The notes under the pieces: generated by a model
What the model was told of the DNA's origin: nothing
Databases searched by the model: none
The model's input: the letters and a program-made list of their open reading frames with translations, nothing else
Assembly (NCBI GenBank): GCA_002086835.1
Contig: MVIG01000001.1
Coordinates: 682,001-746,000 of the forward strand
DNA: 64,000 nt
Direction: 5' to 3'
Source of the DNA: Mycolicibacterium porcinum
Lineage (GTDB): Bacteria > Actinomycetota > Actinomycetes > Mycobacteriales > Mycobacteriaceae
Program-made: the position numbers and the translations under genes
In this document: one piece after another, positions 3,709 to 11,668 of the stretch
Numbering within the stretch: the stretch's first letter is position 1
Layout of the letters: each line of letters opens with the position of its first letter

Positions 3709-4385
3709 GCTGGACTCGTGACCAGATGGCTGCGCGCGCCGCTGCCGAACTTCGTGACGGCGACTACGTGAACCTCGGTATCGGCCTGCCCACACTGATT
3801 CCGGACTACCTGCCCGACGGCTCGGATGTCACTCTGCACGCCGAGAACGGAATCCTCGGAGTCGGTCCGTTCCCGTACGACGACGAGGTAGACCCAGACC
3901 TGATCAATGCGGGCAAGCAGACCGTATCGCTGGTGCCCGGCGCGTCATTCTTCGACTCCGCGACGAGTTTCGCGATGATCCGCGGCGGTCACGTCGACGT
4001 CGCGGTGCTGGGCGGCATGCAGGTGGCTGCGAACGGCGACCTTGCCAACTGGATGGTGCCCGGATCCATGGTCAAGGGAATGGGTGGTGCCATGGATCTG
4101 GTCAACGGCGCGGGTCGTGTCATCGTGCTGATGGATCACATCTCCAAAAGTGGTGCGGCCAAGCTCGTTTCGGCGTGCGATCTGCCGATTACCGGGAAGG
4201 GCGTGGTCAGCCGGGTGATCACCGATCTTGGGGTCTTCGACGTCGCGGGCGACGGATTCGACCTGCTCGAATTGGCTCCCGGCGTCGAATACGACCATGT
4301 CGTGGCCAACACCGCCGCGCCTGTTATCTATCCTCCGCGGAGTGCGGCCAACTCGGCACGAGACCGCACACCGAGCTTCGCGTAG
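3705..4385 (+). CDS. pcaJ: 3-oxoadipate CoA-transferase, beta subunit, 3' end overlapping benR
   Basis: This 226-residue B subunit carries the catalytic glutamate in LHAENGILG and the conserved [11 protein letters not shown] and [14 protein letters not shown] segments. The family usually ends soon after a motif like ANTAAPVI. Here the frame runs on for about 17 residues rich in S, A and R, through the end of the converging LAL regulator gene, giving a 58-base antisense overlap. The tail looks like read-through into the neighbour rather than a family feature. The start overlaps the pcaI stop. Confidence 0.92.
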
Positions 4386-6964
4386 ATGCGGGTGAGGTGG
4401 TACTGCACGGTCTTCGGTGACACGTACAGCTCCGCGGCCACCTCACGGTTCGTCAATCCCTTTGCGACGAGCGTGGTTACCGCTTCTTCCTGCGGCGTCA
4501 GCTCGACACTGTCACGAGACCCGCGCAGCTGATGCAACCCGCCCGCCTTGAGCTCACGCTCGCAGCGGGCCACGAATGTCTGCGCACCGAGCGATAGATA
4601 GAGCTCCCGTGCGGTGCTGATCACCTCGTCCGCCTGGCGACGTTTGCCGGCCCGGCGCAGCGTCTGTCCGTAGGCGAAGTTGATCCGCGCACGGTCATAC
4701 CGCAGCGGCAGCCCATCCAAGAGTGCGAGAGACTCCTCGAATCTGGCTCGTGCCGCGGGCAGGTCACCCATTGCGCCCAGCAGCCTGCCGCGTGCGTAAC
4801 CGAGTCTGGCCATCGCCGAGCGGTGCTCGCGCTTTCGGGCCTGGGCTTCGTGCGGTCGCAAGAACTCGTCCGCGGCTGCCAATTCGCCCTGGAGGACAAG
4901 GGCGTTGGCCAACAGATCGGGCCACGGCCAGTACCCCGGCTCGGCCAGCGAGGTGCCCCGCGCCATCCGGGCCAGCGGTTCCAGCACGCGCCACACCTTG
5001 GCGTAGTCGGCGTCGGTCTCGGCGACGTGGGCCCGAGCGAGAATCGTCGGTATGCGGGCCATCTCGTAGTCCTGGGTGACGACGTCGGCGGCCCGCACCG
5101 CCAGATTGGCCTCAGCCCAGTCTCCGCGAAGCGCATGGATCTGCGCCGCAGTCCATTCCAGCAACGGCGTGACGATGACGATGCCGCTCGATACTGCCAA
5201 ATCGCGGCCCGCCCTGACGGCAGACAGCGCGGCGTCCCAGTCGCCGCACACGAAATGCACCCGGGCCAGCCACCCCTGCGCCCACAGCGTGATCCGAGTC
5301 GAACCGCCAAGACCTGCTGTGGAAACCGCACTTTCGAGGTTGCTGCGGGCCGTGTCGACGTCATCGCGGATGAACTGCAGCCAACCCCTGCCCATCGTGA
5401 CCCGCTGGGCCTGTGCCCCGTGCCGCACCCTGGCGGCGAGTTCGTCGTAAGCCGCTGTCGCTTTTCGTGGATGGCCTGCCGCGGCCAGGCCGAGGCCGCG
5501 GATGGCGGCCGATTCGATGCCGGCGGGGGAGTCGCGATCGCTGAGGCGTAGTGCGGTGTCGGCCCAGGACACCAGCTCGTCGCCGCGGCAACGCACGAGC
5601 GAATGCAGGACGTACCGTTGCGCGATCAGCGCGGCCGTGTCGGGCTCCCGCTCGGCGTTGACAATGTCCCAGGCGCGGCGCAGGCGTACCTCGGCCTCGG
5701 TAGCGCGGCCGCGCAGGATGGCGAGATAGGCCAGAACGCCGTTGCGCAAAGGTGTTTCGCGTAGGCTCTCCACCGCCGGGACGAGCGCCGCGGCGGCTCC
5801 GCAGTCGCCTGCGGCCACCAGGGCATCGACGGCACGAGTGAGGCGTTCGTCGCGCAGGAGCGGCTCCGGCGTGAGTCGGCTGGCATCGCGGAACAGCGAA
5901 GCCGCCCGGGCCCAGGCACCCTCGGTGCCATGTTCACGCGCCAGGGCCTCGATGTCACCGGCGAGGTTTTCGTCGGGCATCGGGGCGGCGGCGACGCGGT
6001 GCCGCAAGCGCCGGTCGGGGTCGTTGACGATTTCTGCAGCCCGCTGGTGCGCCTCGGCGGTGCGCTGCGCGCTCATCTGCGCCAGGATGGCCGCCCGGGT
6101 CATGGCGTCGGGCAACCGGGGCTCAAAAGTGACGACGTGCGAGATCAATCCGGCACCGGCGGCCTGGTCGACGGCACGCAGGGGATCGGAAAGCGCAGCG
6201 AGTTCGGCGGCCTCGGCCAACGTGGCGTCGTCGCCCAGCACCGCCAGCGCCTCGACCAGTGTCCGCCCATCCGGTCCACATGCGGCCAGCTGTCCGCGGA
6301 CCCGTTCGACCACGTATCGCGGCGCAGGCAGACTCGCATCGGGGCGTGCCCATACCGCGGCGGGCACCTCGTCGAGGAGGGCGAGGACATCGCGAGGATT
6401 ACCGCGCGTGTGCTCGGTCAACGTGTCCGCCATTGTGGGATGCACGACGACCCCGCGCAGCCGCGCCAACTCGGTGACCGCTGATGCAGGCAAGCCGGTC
6501 AACGCCAGCACCGCACCTGTGAGATCGACGGGCAGGGCGGCGACCGACGATGCGGTGAGGACGATCAGGACGGGGATGTCCCGTTGATGGCGGACCAGAG
6601 TGGACAGCGCTTGGAGCGATTCGGTATCCGCATACTCGGCGTCGTCGATCGCGAGCAGGCCGACCCCCGCCGCACGCAGGTGGTCGACAAGGTGTGCGGC
6701 AGCCGCCACCGGGTCGGCCGGAACTTCATCCTGAACCAGCTGTGCGAGGACGCCGCCCGGCAGATCGGATTCCCACGGAACCGCTCGTGCCCACCACGCG
6801 CCGTGTGCGGCCGTCAGCTCGCGCACCAAGGCGGTTTTCCCGATGCCTGGCTCACCGACCACCGCGACCACGGCCGCACCGTGGTCGACCGTGGCGGCGA
6901 GGTGTTGGGCGAGTTCGGTCAGTTCGCGGTCCCGCCCCACGCAGCCGGGGGAGCCTTCGAGCAC
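4328..6964 (-). CDS. benR: LuxR-family LAL-type ATPase regulator, probable benzoate regulator
   Basis: This 878-residue regulator has an N-terminal AAA/STAND ATPase with Walker A GEPGIGKT (residues 37-44) and Walker [10 protein letters not shown] long helical repeat region follows, then a C-terminal LuxR helix-turn-helix ([20 protein letters not shown]). It starts at a GTG 24 bases after the benC-FCD-benD stop on the same strand, so it is the last gene of the ben unit. In Corynebacterium glutamicum a LAL-type BenR sits with the ben genes and controls them. Sharing that role is inferred from position and architecture. The 3' end overlaps pcaJ. Confidence 0.85.
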
Positions 6965-6988: not shown

Positions 6989-9697
6989 TCAGCCCTGGTC
7001 GCCTCCGGCGACCGGGAGGACGGTGCCGGTGATATAGGAGGCCTCGTCAGACGCCAGGAAGCAGATCGCCGCCGATTGCTCGTCGAGCGTTCCATATCGG
7101 TGCATCACGGCCGAGTCCAGTGTCTGGTCGATGTGTCCCTGAAACCACGCTCGCTCGGTATCACTGGCCGGTTCGGGTGTGCCCCGCGAAATGCGGCGCG
7201 GCGGTGCCTCTGTGCCACCGGGCGCGGTGGCCACCACCCGCACCCCGGCGTCGGCATATTCCATCGCCAGTGACGCCGTGATCGCGTTGATCCCACCCTT
7301 GGCCGCGGAGTACGGGATTCGGTGGATGCCACGGGTGGCCGCCGAGGACACGTTGACGATGACGCCGCCGCCGTGGGAAAGCATGGCAGGCAACACCGCG
7401 CGAGACGCGAACAACGTGGTCATCAACGACCGGGTGATCTCCGCCTGGATCTCGGCTTCGGAGAACTCGGTGAACGGTTTGAAGTTGATGGCGCCGCCCA
7501 CATTGTTGATCAGCACATCGATCCGGCCGAACTCCGAGAGTGCCTGGCGGACAACATTGTTCGCGTTCTCGTAATGCTCGAGGTCCGCGGTGACCGCAAG
7601 GTTGCGCGGGCCACCGACCACCAGCTCGTCGGCGAGCTCTTTCACCAGCTCCGAGCGGTCGACGAGAACCAGTGTTCCGCCTTCGGCACTGATGCGCCGG
7701 GCGGTGTGCTCACCGATTCCCTGCGCGGCACCGGTGACCACCACGACCTTTCCGGCGAACCGGCCGGGGGTGATGAACTTCGGTTTGCGGGCTTCGAGAT
7801 GGTCGGCCATCGCACGACGCATGGTCTGCTTCGAACGGTCGGCATGCGCGATCATCAAAGCGCGTGCGGCGCTTCGGTCCCCGCTCTCGAATGCCTTGAC
7901 GATGTCCACGTGGTCTTGGGCACACAACGGATGGCACCATGTTGCATCGCTCAGCACCTCGCTCATGCGGCCTTTCACGCCGAGCGCCTGATATGCCTGC
8001 AGCAGGTGATCATTGCCGGTGAGGGTGAACAGGTAGTCGTGGAATGCGGCGTTGGTCTCGGTGTACTGCCGGGCGTCGACGAATTGATCGCCCTCGACGT
8101 AGGGCAGGGTCGATTCGGCCAGCAATCGGTATCCGGCCAGCTGCCCACTGGTCAACCGGCCCAATGTCAGTTCGAGTGCGCCGAGTTCGAGGGCTTGCCG
8201 CGCCTCGAACAGCGCATCGGACTCGTGTACCTCGGGGTGTTCCTCGCCGATTTGATAGCCGTCGGCAGTGACCGTCGGCGGCTCGGGTTGCCGGACCGGC
8301 ACCGGGGCCAGTGCGGCCGCACCGAAGATTTCCTGACCTGCGACGGTACGAGCGTCCGGATCGCCGGAGGCCTCGGGAGTGGGGGCAGCCCCGCCGGTTT
8401 CGACGATCCTCGCCGGGCCTGCGCCGGCGCCAGCCGCCACCAACTGGCCCGCGATCTTGCGCATGCGGTCGGTCTCGGCGCCATCGTCACCATCCGGAAA
8501 CCGGCCGGTCCAGGCCGCGATGCTGGTGCCGGGGAACAGATTCTGCCCGGTCACGGCGCGCGCATCCCCGGCGGTCAGCAGGTGCTCGGCCGGTGCGACG
8601 GCGGCCGCCGCGGTCGGGGCGGGTGCGGCGGGGGCGGCTGTCGAGGCTGCCAAGGCGAACTTCTCATAGAAGAAACCGCTCGGTTCGATACCCGACTGGG
8701 CGACGTGCTTGCGGACCGCCTCCACCATGGGTGGTGGCCCGCACAGGTAGATCGCGACATCCCCGTTGTAGAGGTGTGCCGGCTCGACAAGGCTGGTGAC
8801 GTAAGCCTTGTCCGGACCCTTGTTGGGTGCGGCGCTGGCCGGGTCGGACACACAGTAGTCCCAGCTGAAGCCCGGCAGATCGGCCGCCAGTTGGGCCAGT
8901 TCGTCGAGCGCCACGACGTCGTCGTCGGTGGAGGCGCCATAGATCAAGTGGGCGCGGCGGTGGCTCCCGTCGTCGCGCAACCGCCGCAGTATGGACAGGA
9001 TCGGTGCCAGTCCGGTGCCGCCGGCCAGCAGCAGAATCGGGCGGTCGGCCGCGCGCAGGAAGAACGAGCCGTGCGGCCCGGTGAACGTGAGGGTGTCTCC
9101 GACCGCTGCCCGTTCGGTCAGGTAGGTCGACATGGCGCCGCCGGGCGTCAGCTTGATCAGGAACGTCAGACGCTCGTCGTCGGGAGCGTTGCTGAACGAG
9201 TACGACCGGGTCACGGTTCCGGAACCGCTGTCGGTTCCCGGAACGGCGATATTCACGTACTGGCCTGGTAGGAAAGCCAATTCGGTGCGGTTCGGGATGG
9301 TGACGGCCAACCGCATGGTGGTCGCCGAGAGGCGTTGCAGCTCCACGACCGTCGAAACATAGGTGGCGGCCGCGGTCTTGGCGACCTCGGAGGTGCTCGC
9401 GATCTGCAGGACCAGGTCCGAGCGCGGCTTCATGCTGCACGGCAACACGTAACCGGCGGCGGCCTCGTCCGCTGACAGCGCATCCTCGATGTAGGTGCCG
9501 CCGTCGTAGCTGCCCGACTCGCACAGCGCTTTGCAGGTACCGCACGCGCCGTCGCGGCAGTCCAGCGGGATGTTGATGCGTTGCCGGTAGGAAGCGTCGG
9601 CCACGGTCTGGTCGGGGCGACAGCTGATGAACCGGGTGACCCCGTCCTCGAAGGACAGGGCGACCCTATGGGTGGCCGGTTCGGATGTGACAGTCAT
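6989..9697 (-). CDS. Fusion: benzoate dioxygenase reductase (BenC), FCD sensor-like domain, dihydrodiol dehydrogenase (BenD)
   Basis: One uninterrupted 902-residue frame contains three units. Residues 1-350 are BenC: a plant-type 2Fe-2S ferredoxin (C47, C52, C55, C87), FAD-binding RSYSFSN and an NAD-binding segment with CGPPPM. After an Ala/Pro-rich linker, about 490-635 match the FCD ligand-binding domain of GntR/FadR regulators. Its metal-type histidines are H553, H596 and H619, but N549 replaces the usual aspartate, and there is no DNA-binding domain. Residues 645-902 are a short-chain dehydrogenase (TGAAQGIG at 655, YSAAK at 796-800) that should oxidise the benzoate cis-diol to catechol. 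The linker repeats DARxVxGQxxF at 378 and 448. It lies 20 bases after benB with GAGG before the ATG. Confidence 0.92.
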   Translation of the reverse strand: MTVTSEPATHRVALSFEDGVTRFISCRPDQTVADASYRQRINIPLDCRDGACGTCKALCESGSYDGGTYIEDALSADEAAAGYVLPCSMKPRSDLVLQIASTSEVAKTAAATYVSTVVELQRLSATTMRLAVTIPNRTELAFLPGQYVNIAVPGTDSGSGTVTRSYSFSNAPDDERLTFLIKLTPGGAMSTYLTERAAVGDTLTFTGPHGSFFLRAADRPILLLAGGTGLAPILSILRRLRDDGSHRRAHLIYGASTDDDVVALDELAQLAADLPGFSWDYCVSDPASAAPNKGPDKAYVTSLVEPAHLYNGDVAIYLCGPPPMVEAVRKHVAQSGIEPSGFFYEKFALAASTAAPAAPAPTAAAAVAPAEHLLTAGDARAVTGQNLFPGTSIAAWTGRFPDGDDGAETDRMRKIAGQLVAAGAGAGPARIVETGGAAPTPEASGDPDARTVAGQEIFGAAALAPVPVRQPEPPTVTADGYQIGEEHPEVHESDALFEARQALELGALELTLGRLTSGQLAGYRLLAESTLPYVEGDQFVDARQYTETNAAFHDYLFTLTGNDHLLQAYQALGVKGRMSEVLSDATWCHPLCAQDHVDIVKAFESGDRSAARALMIAHADRSKQTMRRAMADHLEARKPKFITPGRFAGKVVVVTGAAQGIGEHTARRISAEGGTLVLVDRSELVKELADELVVGGPRNLAVTADLEHYENANNVVRQALSEFGRIDVLINNVGGAINFKPFTEFSEAEIQAEITRSLMTTLFASRAVLPAMLSHGGGVIVNVSSAATRGIHRIPYSAAKGGINAITASLAMEYADAGVRVVATAPGGTEAPPRRISRGTPEPASDTERAWFQGHIDQTLDSAVMHRYGTLDEQSAAICFLASDEASYITGTVLPVAGGDQG

Positions 9698-9717: not shown

Positions 9718-10233
9718 TCAGAAGTGGTAGACATCCACCACGTGGTGGATGTAGTCGTTCTTGAGCACCACGGTCTTTCGTCGGATCAGCGGATGCTCAC
9801 CGGAGAAGTCGATGGTGTAGAAGGACGTCCCGTAGTATGGGTCGACCGTCTTGTAGCGGAAGTACATCGTGTGCCAGTTGAATCGGACGTCCACCAGGTC
9901 GCCGCGCCGTTCGATCACCTCGACGTTGCTGATGTTGTGGCTCGTGCGTGGTTCGGGGAGTGACGTCGCCGACGATCGTTCCGTGCGGATCCGGAACACC
10001 CGATCCTCAAGACCGCCCTTGTCGGCGTAGTAGATCAGCGAGATGTCGCGTTGCGGATCCTCGACGAGCCGATCGTCGTCGGTCCACGCCGGCATCCAGT
10101 ACACGACGTCGTCGGCGTAGCAGTCCAGCCACTTCTCGAACTCGCGATCGTCCAGATAGCGCGCCTCCCGGTAGAGAAACTGTTCGATCGCGTTCTGGGT
10201 GATCAGCTTCGAGGTCTGGGTCTCGGTGCTCAT
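9718..10233 (-). CDS. benB: Benzoate 1,2-dioxygenase, beta subunit
   Basis: This 171-residue small subunit of the ring-hydroxylating oxygenase has the NTF2-like fold of the family. Hallmarks include [20 protein letters not shown] at the N-terminus and HNISNVEV in the middle. It is structural and pairs with BenA in a hexameric oxygenase. The ATG overlaps the benA stop (ATGA), so the two are made together. Confidence 0.94.
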
Positions 10234-11600
10234 CGCTCTGCACCTTCCTTGGTCAGCGCCTCGCGCATGGTCTGCAGCCAGTACCCGTGCTGGACGGGGA
10301 ACAGGCCCTCGTCCTCGTTGCGTACGCCGGCCGATACGATGCCGGTCATACCGAGCGACTCCGCCACCGGGTCAGGTCCCGAAAGCCAGTGTGTGGCACC
10401 ACGACTCATGTCGTTCCATGGCGCAGCCTGGGCGCGGAAGGTGAGTTGGCACGAGCGAAACTCTTCGAGATCATCGGGAGTGGCCATGCCGGAGGCGTTG
10501 AAGAAATCTTCGTACTGGCGGATGCGTTGAGCCCGGGCGGCATCGCTCTCACCCTTGGGGGCGATGCAGTAGATGGTGACCTCCGTCTTGTCCGCAGCGA
10601 TCGGGCGAAAATGCCGGATCTGGGTCGAGAACTGGTCCATCAGATACAGATTCGGGTAGACGCACAGGTTGCGTGAGCCTTTGACCATGAATTCACCCTT
10701 GGCGTCGCCGAACTGGGCCTTGAGGTCGTCGAGCTTGTCCCACAAGGGCCGATCCTCAGGGTTGGCCGCCCACGTCCACAAGCACAGGTGGCCATGTGGG
10801 AACGACCAGTAGCCGCCTCCCGACTTGCCCCAACCGCCGGCATCGAGTGCCTTGGTCTCGTTCTTCGATTCGCCGGTGCTGCGCCGGCCGGTGGTGGCCG
10901 CGTAATTCCAGTGGGTCGCGGTGACGTGATATCCGTCGGCGCCGTTCTCGGCCTGCACCTTCCAGTTGCCGTCGTAGGTGTAGGTCGACGAACCTCTCAG
11001 CACCTCAAGGCCTTCCGGGGACTGGTCGACCAGCATGTCGATCACCGCCGTGGCATCGCCGAGGTGCTCGGCCAGCGGCAACACGTCGGCGTTGAGGCTG
11101 CCGAACAGGAACCCCCGGTAGCTCTCGAAGCGTGCGACCTTGGTCATGTTGTGGGAACCGCCGGAGTTGAAGGTGTCCGGATAGCCGGCCCCGTCGGGGT
11201 CCTTCACCTTCAGCAGGGTGCCGTCGTTCCGGAACGTCCAGCCGTGAAACGGGCAGGTCAAGGTGGTGCGGTTGTCGGTCTTGCGGCGGCAGACCATCGC
11301 GCCGCGGTGGGCGCAGGCATTGATCAGACAGTGCAGTTCGCCGTCCTTGTCCCGGGTGATCACCACGGGCTGCCGGCCGATGTAGGTGGTGAAGTAATCC
11401 CCTGGATTGGGCAGTTGGCTCTCGTGGGCGAGGTAGAGCCAGTTGCCCTCGAAGATGTGCTTCATCTCCAGCTCGAAGAGTTCCTCGTCGGTGAAGATCC
11501 GGCGGTTGGCTCGGTACACGCCGGCCTGCGGGTCGTCGATCACCGCATCGGCCAACACGGCGGCCAGATGTGGGTGCGAAACCGGGACTGTAGCTGTCAT
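10230..11600 (-). CDS. benA: Benzoate 1,2-dioxygenase, alpha subunit
   Basis: This 456-residue catalytic subunit has Rieske 2Fe-2S ligands C96, H98, C116 and H119 (CAHRG and CPFHGW) and the mononuclear iron triad H225 and H230 with bridging D222 ([13 protein letters not shown]). It dihydroxylates benzoate at C1-C2. I chose the ATG at 11600 (MTATVPVS), which has GGAGG eight bases upstream. A longer frame begins at 11651 but lacks a ribosome site. It is the first gene of benA-benB-fusion-benR and is divergent from catR. Related substrates such as toluate or anthranilate cannot be excluded from the motifs, but the cat/pca context favours benzoate. Confidence 0.94.
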
Positions 11601-11668
11601 TTGGGATGCCTCCAGATGAGCGCAAATGCGCGAATACCTGAACTCTGGCATTGAGTGGTCGCCATCAC

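Follow-up and report, generated by a model that had tools for sequence, protein, structure and literature searches.

Domain architecture, conservation and a repeated linker motif of the BenC–FCD–BenD fusion protein in actinobacterial benzoate operons

The reductase BenC transfers electrons from NADH to the oxygenase BenAB, and the dehydrogenase BenD oxidises the diol to catechol and regenerates NADH. The BenAB oxygenase is an α3β3 oligomer, and in the usual description of Rieske dioxygenase systems, oxygenase and reductase are separate proteins that form a loose set. In Pseudomonadota (e.g. H7 and H14), the same enzymes are encoded in the order benA-benB-benC-benD, but benC and benD are separate genes. 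A fusion of benC and benD with an FCD domain was reported in Gordonia alkanivorans YC-RL2 (PMC6362181). Here, we analysed a window of 64,000 nucleotides from Mycolicibacterium porcinum (assembly GCA_002086835.1, contig MVIG01000001.1, positions 682,001 to 746,000 of the forward strand), in which one minus-strand gene (6989..9697) encodes BenC, an FCD domain and BenD in a single protein.

The fusion with FCD is therefore already in print and is not new. The Gordonia cluster resembles the present locus in its benABCD order and in the LysR-type and LuxR-type regulator genes at its two sides; its FCD is called C-terminal, whereas here the domain lies between BenC and BenD, and the available part of that paper states the fusion but gives no distribution, metal site, motif in the linker or mechanism (PMC6362181). 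Likewise, the benC product of Rhodococcus sp. TG-1 is named 'FCD domain-containing protein', although a separate benD is listed and FCD is not discussed in the accessible text (PMC11858498). In R. ruber, benC is listed under a joint reductase/dehydrogenase name (PMC6498646), and the accessible part of PMC10215345 contains no mention of benC. The accessible portions of the open-access literature gave nothing on the linker motif, the BenC metal set, the history of the fusion or its losses.

The fusion gene starts with ATG and encodes 902 amino acids in a frame without internal stop; all its parts lie on the minus strand. The BenC unit (8654..9670, residues 10–348) scored 460.4 bits against the NCBIfam model NF040810, above the curated cut-off of 430, and contains the 2Fe-2S ferredoxin, FAD and NAD domains in Pfam (Fer2 17–91, FAD_binding_6 116–212 and NAD_binding_1 223–330). 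The BenD unit (6992..7762, residues 646–902) is a short-chain dehydrogenase (adh_short at 650–832 in Pfam) and scored 410.4 bits against NF040811, above the curated cut-off of 380. Between them lies the FCD domain (7778..8248, residues 484–640), which matched PF07729 at residues 496–620 with 60.2 bits (cut-off 24.3, E 3.4e-16) and covers positions 2–124 of the 125-position profile. The GntR winged helix PF00392 gave no match in the protein up to E 10. The initial annotation, made from the sequence letters, had proposed exactly this arrangement, namely BenC and BenD joined in one protein by a complete FCD domain (at residues 490–635) without a DNA-binding part, and the profile searches and the absence of stops between the units in this sequence bear it out.

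A hypervariable linker (8261..8653, residues 349–479) connects BenC to FCD. Alignment A1, consisting of the window protein and 33 of the 35 loci from the seeded contig search described below (L033 and L039 were left out), gave mean pairwise identities of 0.733 for BenC, 0.331 for the linker, 0.776 for FCD and 0.779 for BenD. In these 34 triple fusions, C47, C52, C55 and C87, which we take to be the 2Fe-2S cluster ligands, are invariant, as are Y796 and K800 of the BenD Y796xxxK800 pair, which has the role of the Y-x3-K motif of short-chain dehydrogenases. Judged by conserved residues, the BenC, FCD and BenD units look intact. The idea that FCD is a decaying relic was excluded, since the domain is conserved like the enzymes.

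The linker carries the least expected part of the protein, a motif absent from the observations of the initial annotation. The window protein has three copies, at 8531..8566 (residues 378–389, core R380), 8432..8467 (residues 411–422, core R413) and 8321..8356 (residues 448–459, core R450). The 104 frames with BenC and FCD yielded 90 distinct linkers, 66 from triple fusions and 24 from two-domain BenC–FCD proteins, and the former were reduced by similarity to 63 nonredundant sequences. The BenC–FCD linkers of the triple fusions are 79–189 residues long and, pooled over the 63, rich in Ala (19%) and Pro (12%). In total, 126 copies of the core R-x-[ILV]-x-G-Q lie in 61 of these 63 linkers, compared with a mean of 0.28 and a maximum of 3 in 500 shuffles. 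A relaxed form of the core occurs three times in 32 linkers, twice in 18, once in 12 and not at all in one (mean 1.1 and maximum 5 in 300 shuffles), so that 50/63 have two or more copies; only L082 lacks a relaxed match, and by our reading it has similar stretches in altered form. Neighbouring relaxed copies are regularly spaced, with 74 of 82 spacings at 28–38 residues (57 of these at 30–33) and the remainder at 12, 40, 42 and 63–65. The motif was picked after the linkers had been viewed, and hence the shuffle test excludes chance composition and does not represent a prior prediction; related linkers, moreover, share the motif by descent. The pattern by which a scaffold would be recognised, a variable linker with regularly spaced copies of a conserved short motif, is present.

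Codon agreement between copies was close to that expected from codon use for G (0.25 vs. 0.28) and Q (0.67 vs. 0.66) and slightly higher for R (0.40 vs. 0.31; 91 comparisons), and therefore recent DNA duplication fails to explain the copies. Furthermore, six distinct two-domain proteins of the Corynebacterium-like genus g4 have linkers of 146–211 residues in which another motif, [IL]-x-[AT]-R-P-x-G, is present in three copies spaced by 28–32 residues. As a separate observation, eleven two-domain linkers (L047, L049–L052, L057, L059–L062 and L066) have a single common stretch like AAAEKAAAETGxPVxL, perhaps a helix. A general targeting signal was considered and rejected, because the pattern A-R-x-[IVM]-[AG]-G-Q, searched on the DNA of the source genome, gave 20 matches and its reversed control 17; of the three copies in the window protein, only copy 3 fits this pattern. 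The extended motif was found in none of the other frames of 148 loci, and the core in none of 120 BenA or 120 BenB frames; single loose core matches were seen in 7/37 CatB, 3/67 LuxR-type, 2/140 BenD and 1/139 BenC frames.

The FCD domain belongs to a BenC-type subfamily. In 201 genomes of the family of the source organism, BenC-type FCD was found in 57, with E-values from 4.5e-81 to 3.6e-68, and the next FCD stood at 3.9e-15. The open-frame lengths of the 57 matches equal those of 57 of the 61 BenC frames above cut-off, and the BenC-type FCD subfamily is therefore unseen outside BenC in these genomes. All six distant FCD matches examined carry both PF00392 and PF07729 and are GntR/FCD regulators, in agreement with the description of FCD as a GntR-regulator domain in the initial annotation. 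The best NCBIfam match of the domain was also a regulator model, TIGR03338, with a score of 45.8 bits that falls far short of the 271.5 required. Against solved structures, the single FCD sequence gave no match up to E 10; an FCD profile gave 14 weak matches (best E 0.0048), by name 13 transcription regulators or repressors and one F1 inhibitor.

The metal-site residues are almost completely conserved. Position 549 is Asn in 90 of 92 distinct FCDs and Thr in two, and H553, H596 and H618 are unchanged in 92/92, as are R500, E504 and R524 (alignment A2 comprises 32 FCDs of our choice, and row L186 of alignment A3, for which the wrong frame had been chosen, was disregarded). The initial annotation had placed N549, H553 and H596 correctly; its last histidine, given as residue 619, is H618, residue 619 being Ala. 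Its further view that Asn in the place of aspartate is a deviation did not stand. In the parts of the papers available, Asn137 and three His bind zinc in Atu1419 (PMC7797058) and Asn144 and three His bind nickel in PS5454 (PMC7674646), two VanR-type GntR regulators. Because Asn is a natural ligand at this place, the metal site of the fusion FCD, with its Asn plus three His set, looks complete. In addition, its residue spacing of 4/43/22 resembles the 4/44/22 of PS5454 (PMC7674646), and metal binding by the fusion FCD is therefore likely. The two regulators differ from the fusion in being DNA-binding proteins, the fusion having no GntR helix.

The survey of actinobacteria proposed in the initial annotation found triple fusions and two-domain BenC–FCD proteins in many genomes. 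A contig search seeded with peptides of the window protein, and thus biased towards triple fusions, returned 35 loci, all with BenC, FCD and BenD in one open frame; one of them, L033 from a Pseudonocardia draft, lacks the first BenC part, which lies outside the open frame through either a sequencing error or a real break. Among the 201 family genomes, 65 matched the BenC model and 61 did so above cut-off, comprising 32 triple fusions, 25 two-domain BenC–FCD proteins without fused BenD (BenD being in another frame at those loci listed), three cases of BenC alone with adjoining BenD (G015, G024 and G068) and one BenC truncated at the end of its contig (G200). The class sample of 394 genomes, which overlaps with that of the family, gave 19 matches, 13 of them above cut-off (11 triple fusions, one two-domain protein in G202 and one BenC without FCD in G523). 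Control searches detected BenC in Corynebacterium glutamicum ATCC 13032. Of 104 matching records in a plasmid collection, a single one, from Tsukamurella, spans 80% or more of the query, and the others, among those listed, span about two thirds of it. This T. tyrosinosolvens plasmid (L191, NZ_LR134459.1, 239 kb) has a ben-cat cluster with a long BenC gene of 2583 bases, labelled in its record only as BenC electron transfer component. Five BenC-like paralogues (L104–L107 and L127; frames of about 850–930 amino acids) were rejected as further fusions, as they scored 287–299 bits, below cut-off, and FCD was matched in none of them. The one of the five that was searched, L104, consists of a reductase and a C-terminal half with a weak flavin-oxidoreductase match.

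The history of the fusion was reconstructed from two trees of BenC domains. Tree 1 is a quick tree of 108 domains, with long branches (L126, L121, L106 and L107) and an outgroup that does not fall on one side; tree 2 is a careful tree of 68 domains without these four, L071 and four duplicate rows, and with about every second triple fusion left out. In both trees, the triple fusions together with L120 form one side of a branch, with support of 99 (108 rows) and 100/98 (68 rows). Named members of this clade in the 108-row tree belong to Mycobacteriaceae, Gordoniaceae, Nocardiaceae, Pseudonocardiaceae, Nocardioidaceae, Kribbellaceae and Dermatophilaceae. Such a clade across many genomes rules out a sequencing artefact or chance fusion. 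The two-domain proteins fall into a Corynebacterium-like part (g4) and a Rhodococcus-like part (g24 and g28), the labels being our reading, and the 108-row tree leaves the order of these two groups and the triple clade unresolved. A single clade of the 26 two-domain rows was rejected in the 68-row tree (approximately unbiased test, p-AU 6.8e-5), a result that could arise alone from the nested rows with BenC alone.

FCD is present in all three groups, which is most simply explained if the domain was gained once, was later fused to BenD once, and was lost in L048, L063, L058 and L120. At L048, the first branch within its group, the absence of FCD could also be the original state. L120, from G523, appears to be a derived loss of FCD from the fusion: its BenC ends within the linker region of its relatives and keeps one linker motif copy at its end, and BenD then follows as a separate frame, by our reading with a possible GTG start overlapping the BenC stop. 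No separate FCD gene was matched by the profile in G523 or G024 at E 0.01 or better. G015 gave two weak FCD matches (best 1.2e-9) and G068 four (best 3.9e-11); FCD split off as its own gene was rejected for these genomes, since L179, L180 and L183, the three examined of the six weak matches (one of them from G068), are GntR regulators. Neither L071 (G200), whose BenC frame is cut by the contig end, nor L121 (G403), a BenC alone at 378 bits and below cut-off, was counted as a loss.

The gene lies in a benzoate operon. Directly upstream, on the same strand, is benB for the small oxygenase subunit (9718..10233, minus; TIGR03232 above cut-off), and beyond it benA for the large subunit (10230..11651, minus; TIGR03229 above cut-off). 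The next frame in the direction of the fusion gene encodes 878 amino acids (4328..6964, minus) with a LuxR-like C-terminus as read from sequence; NCBIfam gave no match to it at E 1e-15 or better. Of 21 loci listed, 18 have a homologue of this frame after BenD. In 120 of 123 BenC loci (98 distinct BenC), benB is directly upstream, and no BenB was matched in the remaining L121, L132 and the short L143. The source genome also has a second, free-standing BenD (G000:C70:98482-99252; locus L002, 1498–2271), which scored 405 bits against NF040811, above cut-off, and is 57% identical to the fused BenD; its start overlaps the end of an aromatic acid/H+ symporter-like gene (288.7 bits, below cut-off).

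The reading that we favour, held tentatively and at slightly less than an even chance, is a bifunctional protein with FCD as a metal-stabilised module and a linker that docks a partner, most plausibly BenAB. Fusing BenC and BenD would put both halves of the NADH cycle in one chain. FCD, a former regulator effector domain, would form a helical module stabilised by metal, whose most likely role is dimerisation and which may also bind an aromatic acid. The linker is probably flexible. Its motif, which is found where linkers are long, is the best sign of a docking partner, and the copies may be docking sites for which α3β3 BenAB is the natural candidate, because benB is directly upstream in nearly all loci. 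A docked chain would hold oxygenase, reductase and dehydrogenase together and close the NADH cycle locally. EPYC1 and CsoS2 are multivalent enzyme linker scaffolds with a short motif repeated in a disordered chain, and the fusion is similar in having a repeated short motif in a chain next to the pathway's oligomeric enzyme; it differs in having just 1–3 copies in its linker and in that docking here is putative. A more specific version is possible but doubtful, in which the protein is a benzoate metabolon scaffold whose disordered linker holds trimeric BenAB through as many as three docking motifs spaced by about 30 residues, and whose metal-bearing FCD, taken from a regulator, sets the oligomer state or gates the BenD–BenC NADH cycle.

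Several observations weigh against the favoured reading. The core motif is absent from all 24 two-domain linkers. The 18 that remain besides the six g4 proteins above include one more g4 sequence; all 18 measure just 21–48 residues and have neither motif, and two-domain BenC therefore presumably works without it. Three relaxed copies occur in only 32/63 triple linkers, which is a poor fit to a strict match with a trimer, and strict-core spacings are at 28–38 residues in 48/65 cases and at about double that (60–66) in 13/65. Moreover, BenA and BenB have no such motif of their own, and lineage-specific positions in BenA (18) and BenB (14) were rejected as contact sites because they are confounded with descent. 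Finally, FCD is absent at four places in the tree, with BenC and BenD separate, and is therefore dispensable there, which speaks against an essential catalytic role of the domain.

Alternatively, in line with an idea of the initial annotation, FCD may be an allosteric sensor, in which benzoate, the diol, catechol or muconate at the metal centre changes how BenC delivers electrons or how active BenD is; the same annotation also considered that FCD could hand the diol from oxygenase to dehydrogenase. The retention of the metal set in 90–92 of 92 FCDs and of R500, E504 and R524 in all, as well as a conservation equal to that of the enzymes, would suit such a function. In the available source text, a hydroxycinnamic-acid pathway has a VanR-type FCD regulator with the same Asn plus three His site, and binding of the sugar acid by DgoR depends on metal. 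However, metal and fold may be kept for stability alone, as losing the three His lowers the melting point of Atu1419 by almost 20 degrees (PMC7797058, accessible part), and the four FCD absences count against a sensor as well. We consider the sensor rather unlikely.

It is somewhat less probable again that FCD is a mere structural spacer or dimerisation clamp, and that the fusion keeps reductase and dehydrogenase expression in step without sensing or docking. FCD domains take part in the dimerisation of GntR regulators, the domain is repeatedly absent across the tree, and benC and benD still lie side by side where they are separate genes, all of which agree with a spacer. Nevertheless, the conserved metal and putative pocket residues and the conserved linker motif exceed what a spacer needs. 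That duplication produced the linker repeats as by-products, or that they bind FCD or BenD of the same chain in cis instead of docking BenAB, is very unlikely: the 20 vs. 17 pattern matches in the source genome, with no use of the motif seen elsewhere, and the lack of the core in BenA and BenB, with single loose matches in CatB, LuxR-type, BenD and BenC frames, are in its favour, but the codons of the copies differ as in old repeats, the motif is kept within a linker of 33% identity, and another motif at similar spacing occurs in g4 proteins without fused BenD.

Taken together, these results show that the fusion gene is a real, long-conserved part of actinobacterial benzoate operons, and the conserved linker motif suggests that its product organises the pathway physically. 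The FCD-less lineages are natural controls. If the scaffold reading is true, linker repeats would have the use in a Rieske dioxygenase system that they have in Rubisco scaffolds, and an equivalent linker would have its own form in the Corynebacterium-like lineage. If the motif docks the oxygenase, the protein would form a natural assembly of reductase, oxygenase and diol dehydrogenase with on-the-spot NADH recycling, useful for dioxygenase biocatalysis, and would clearly exemplify the recruitment of a regulator effector domain into an enzyme.

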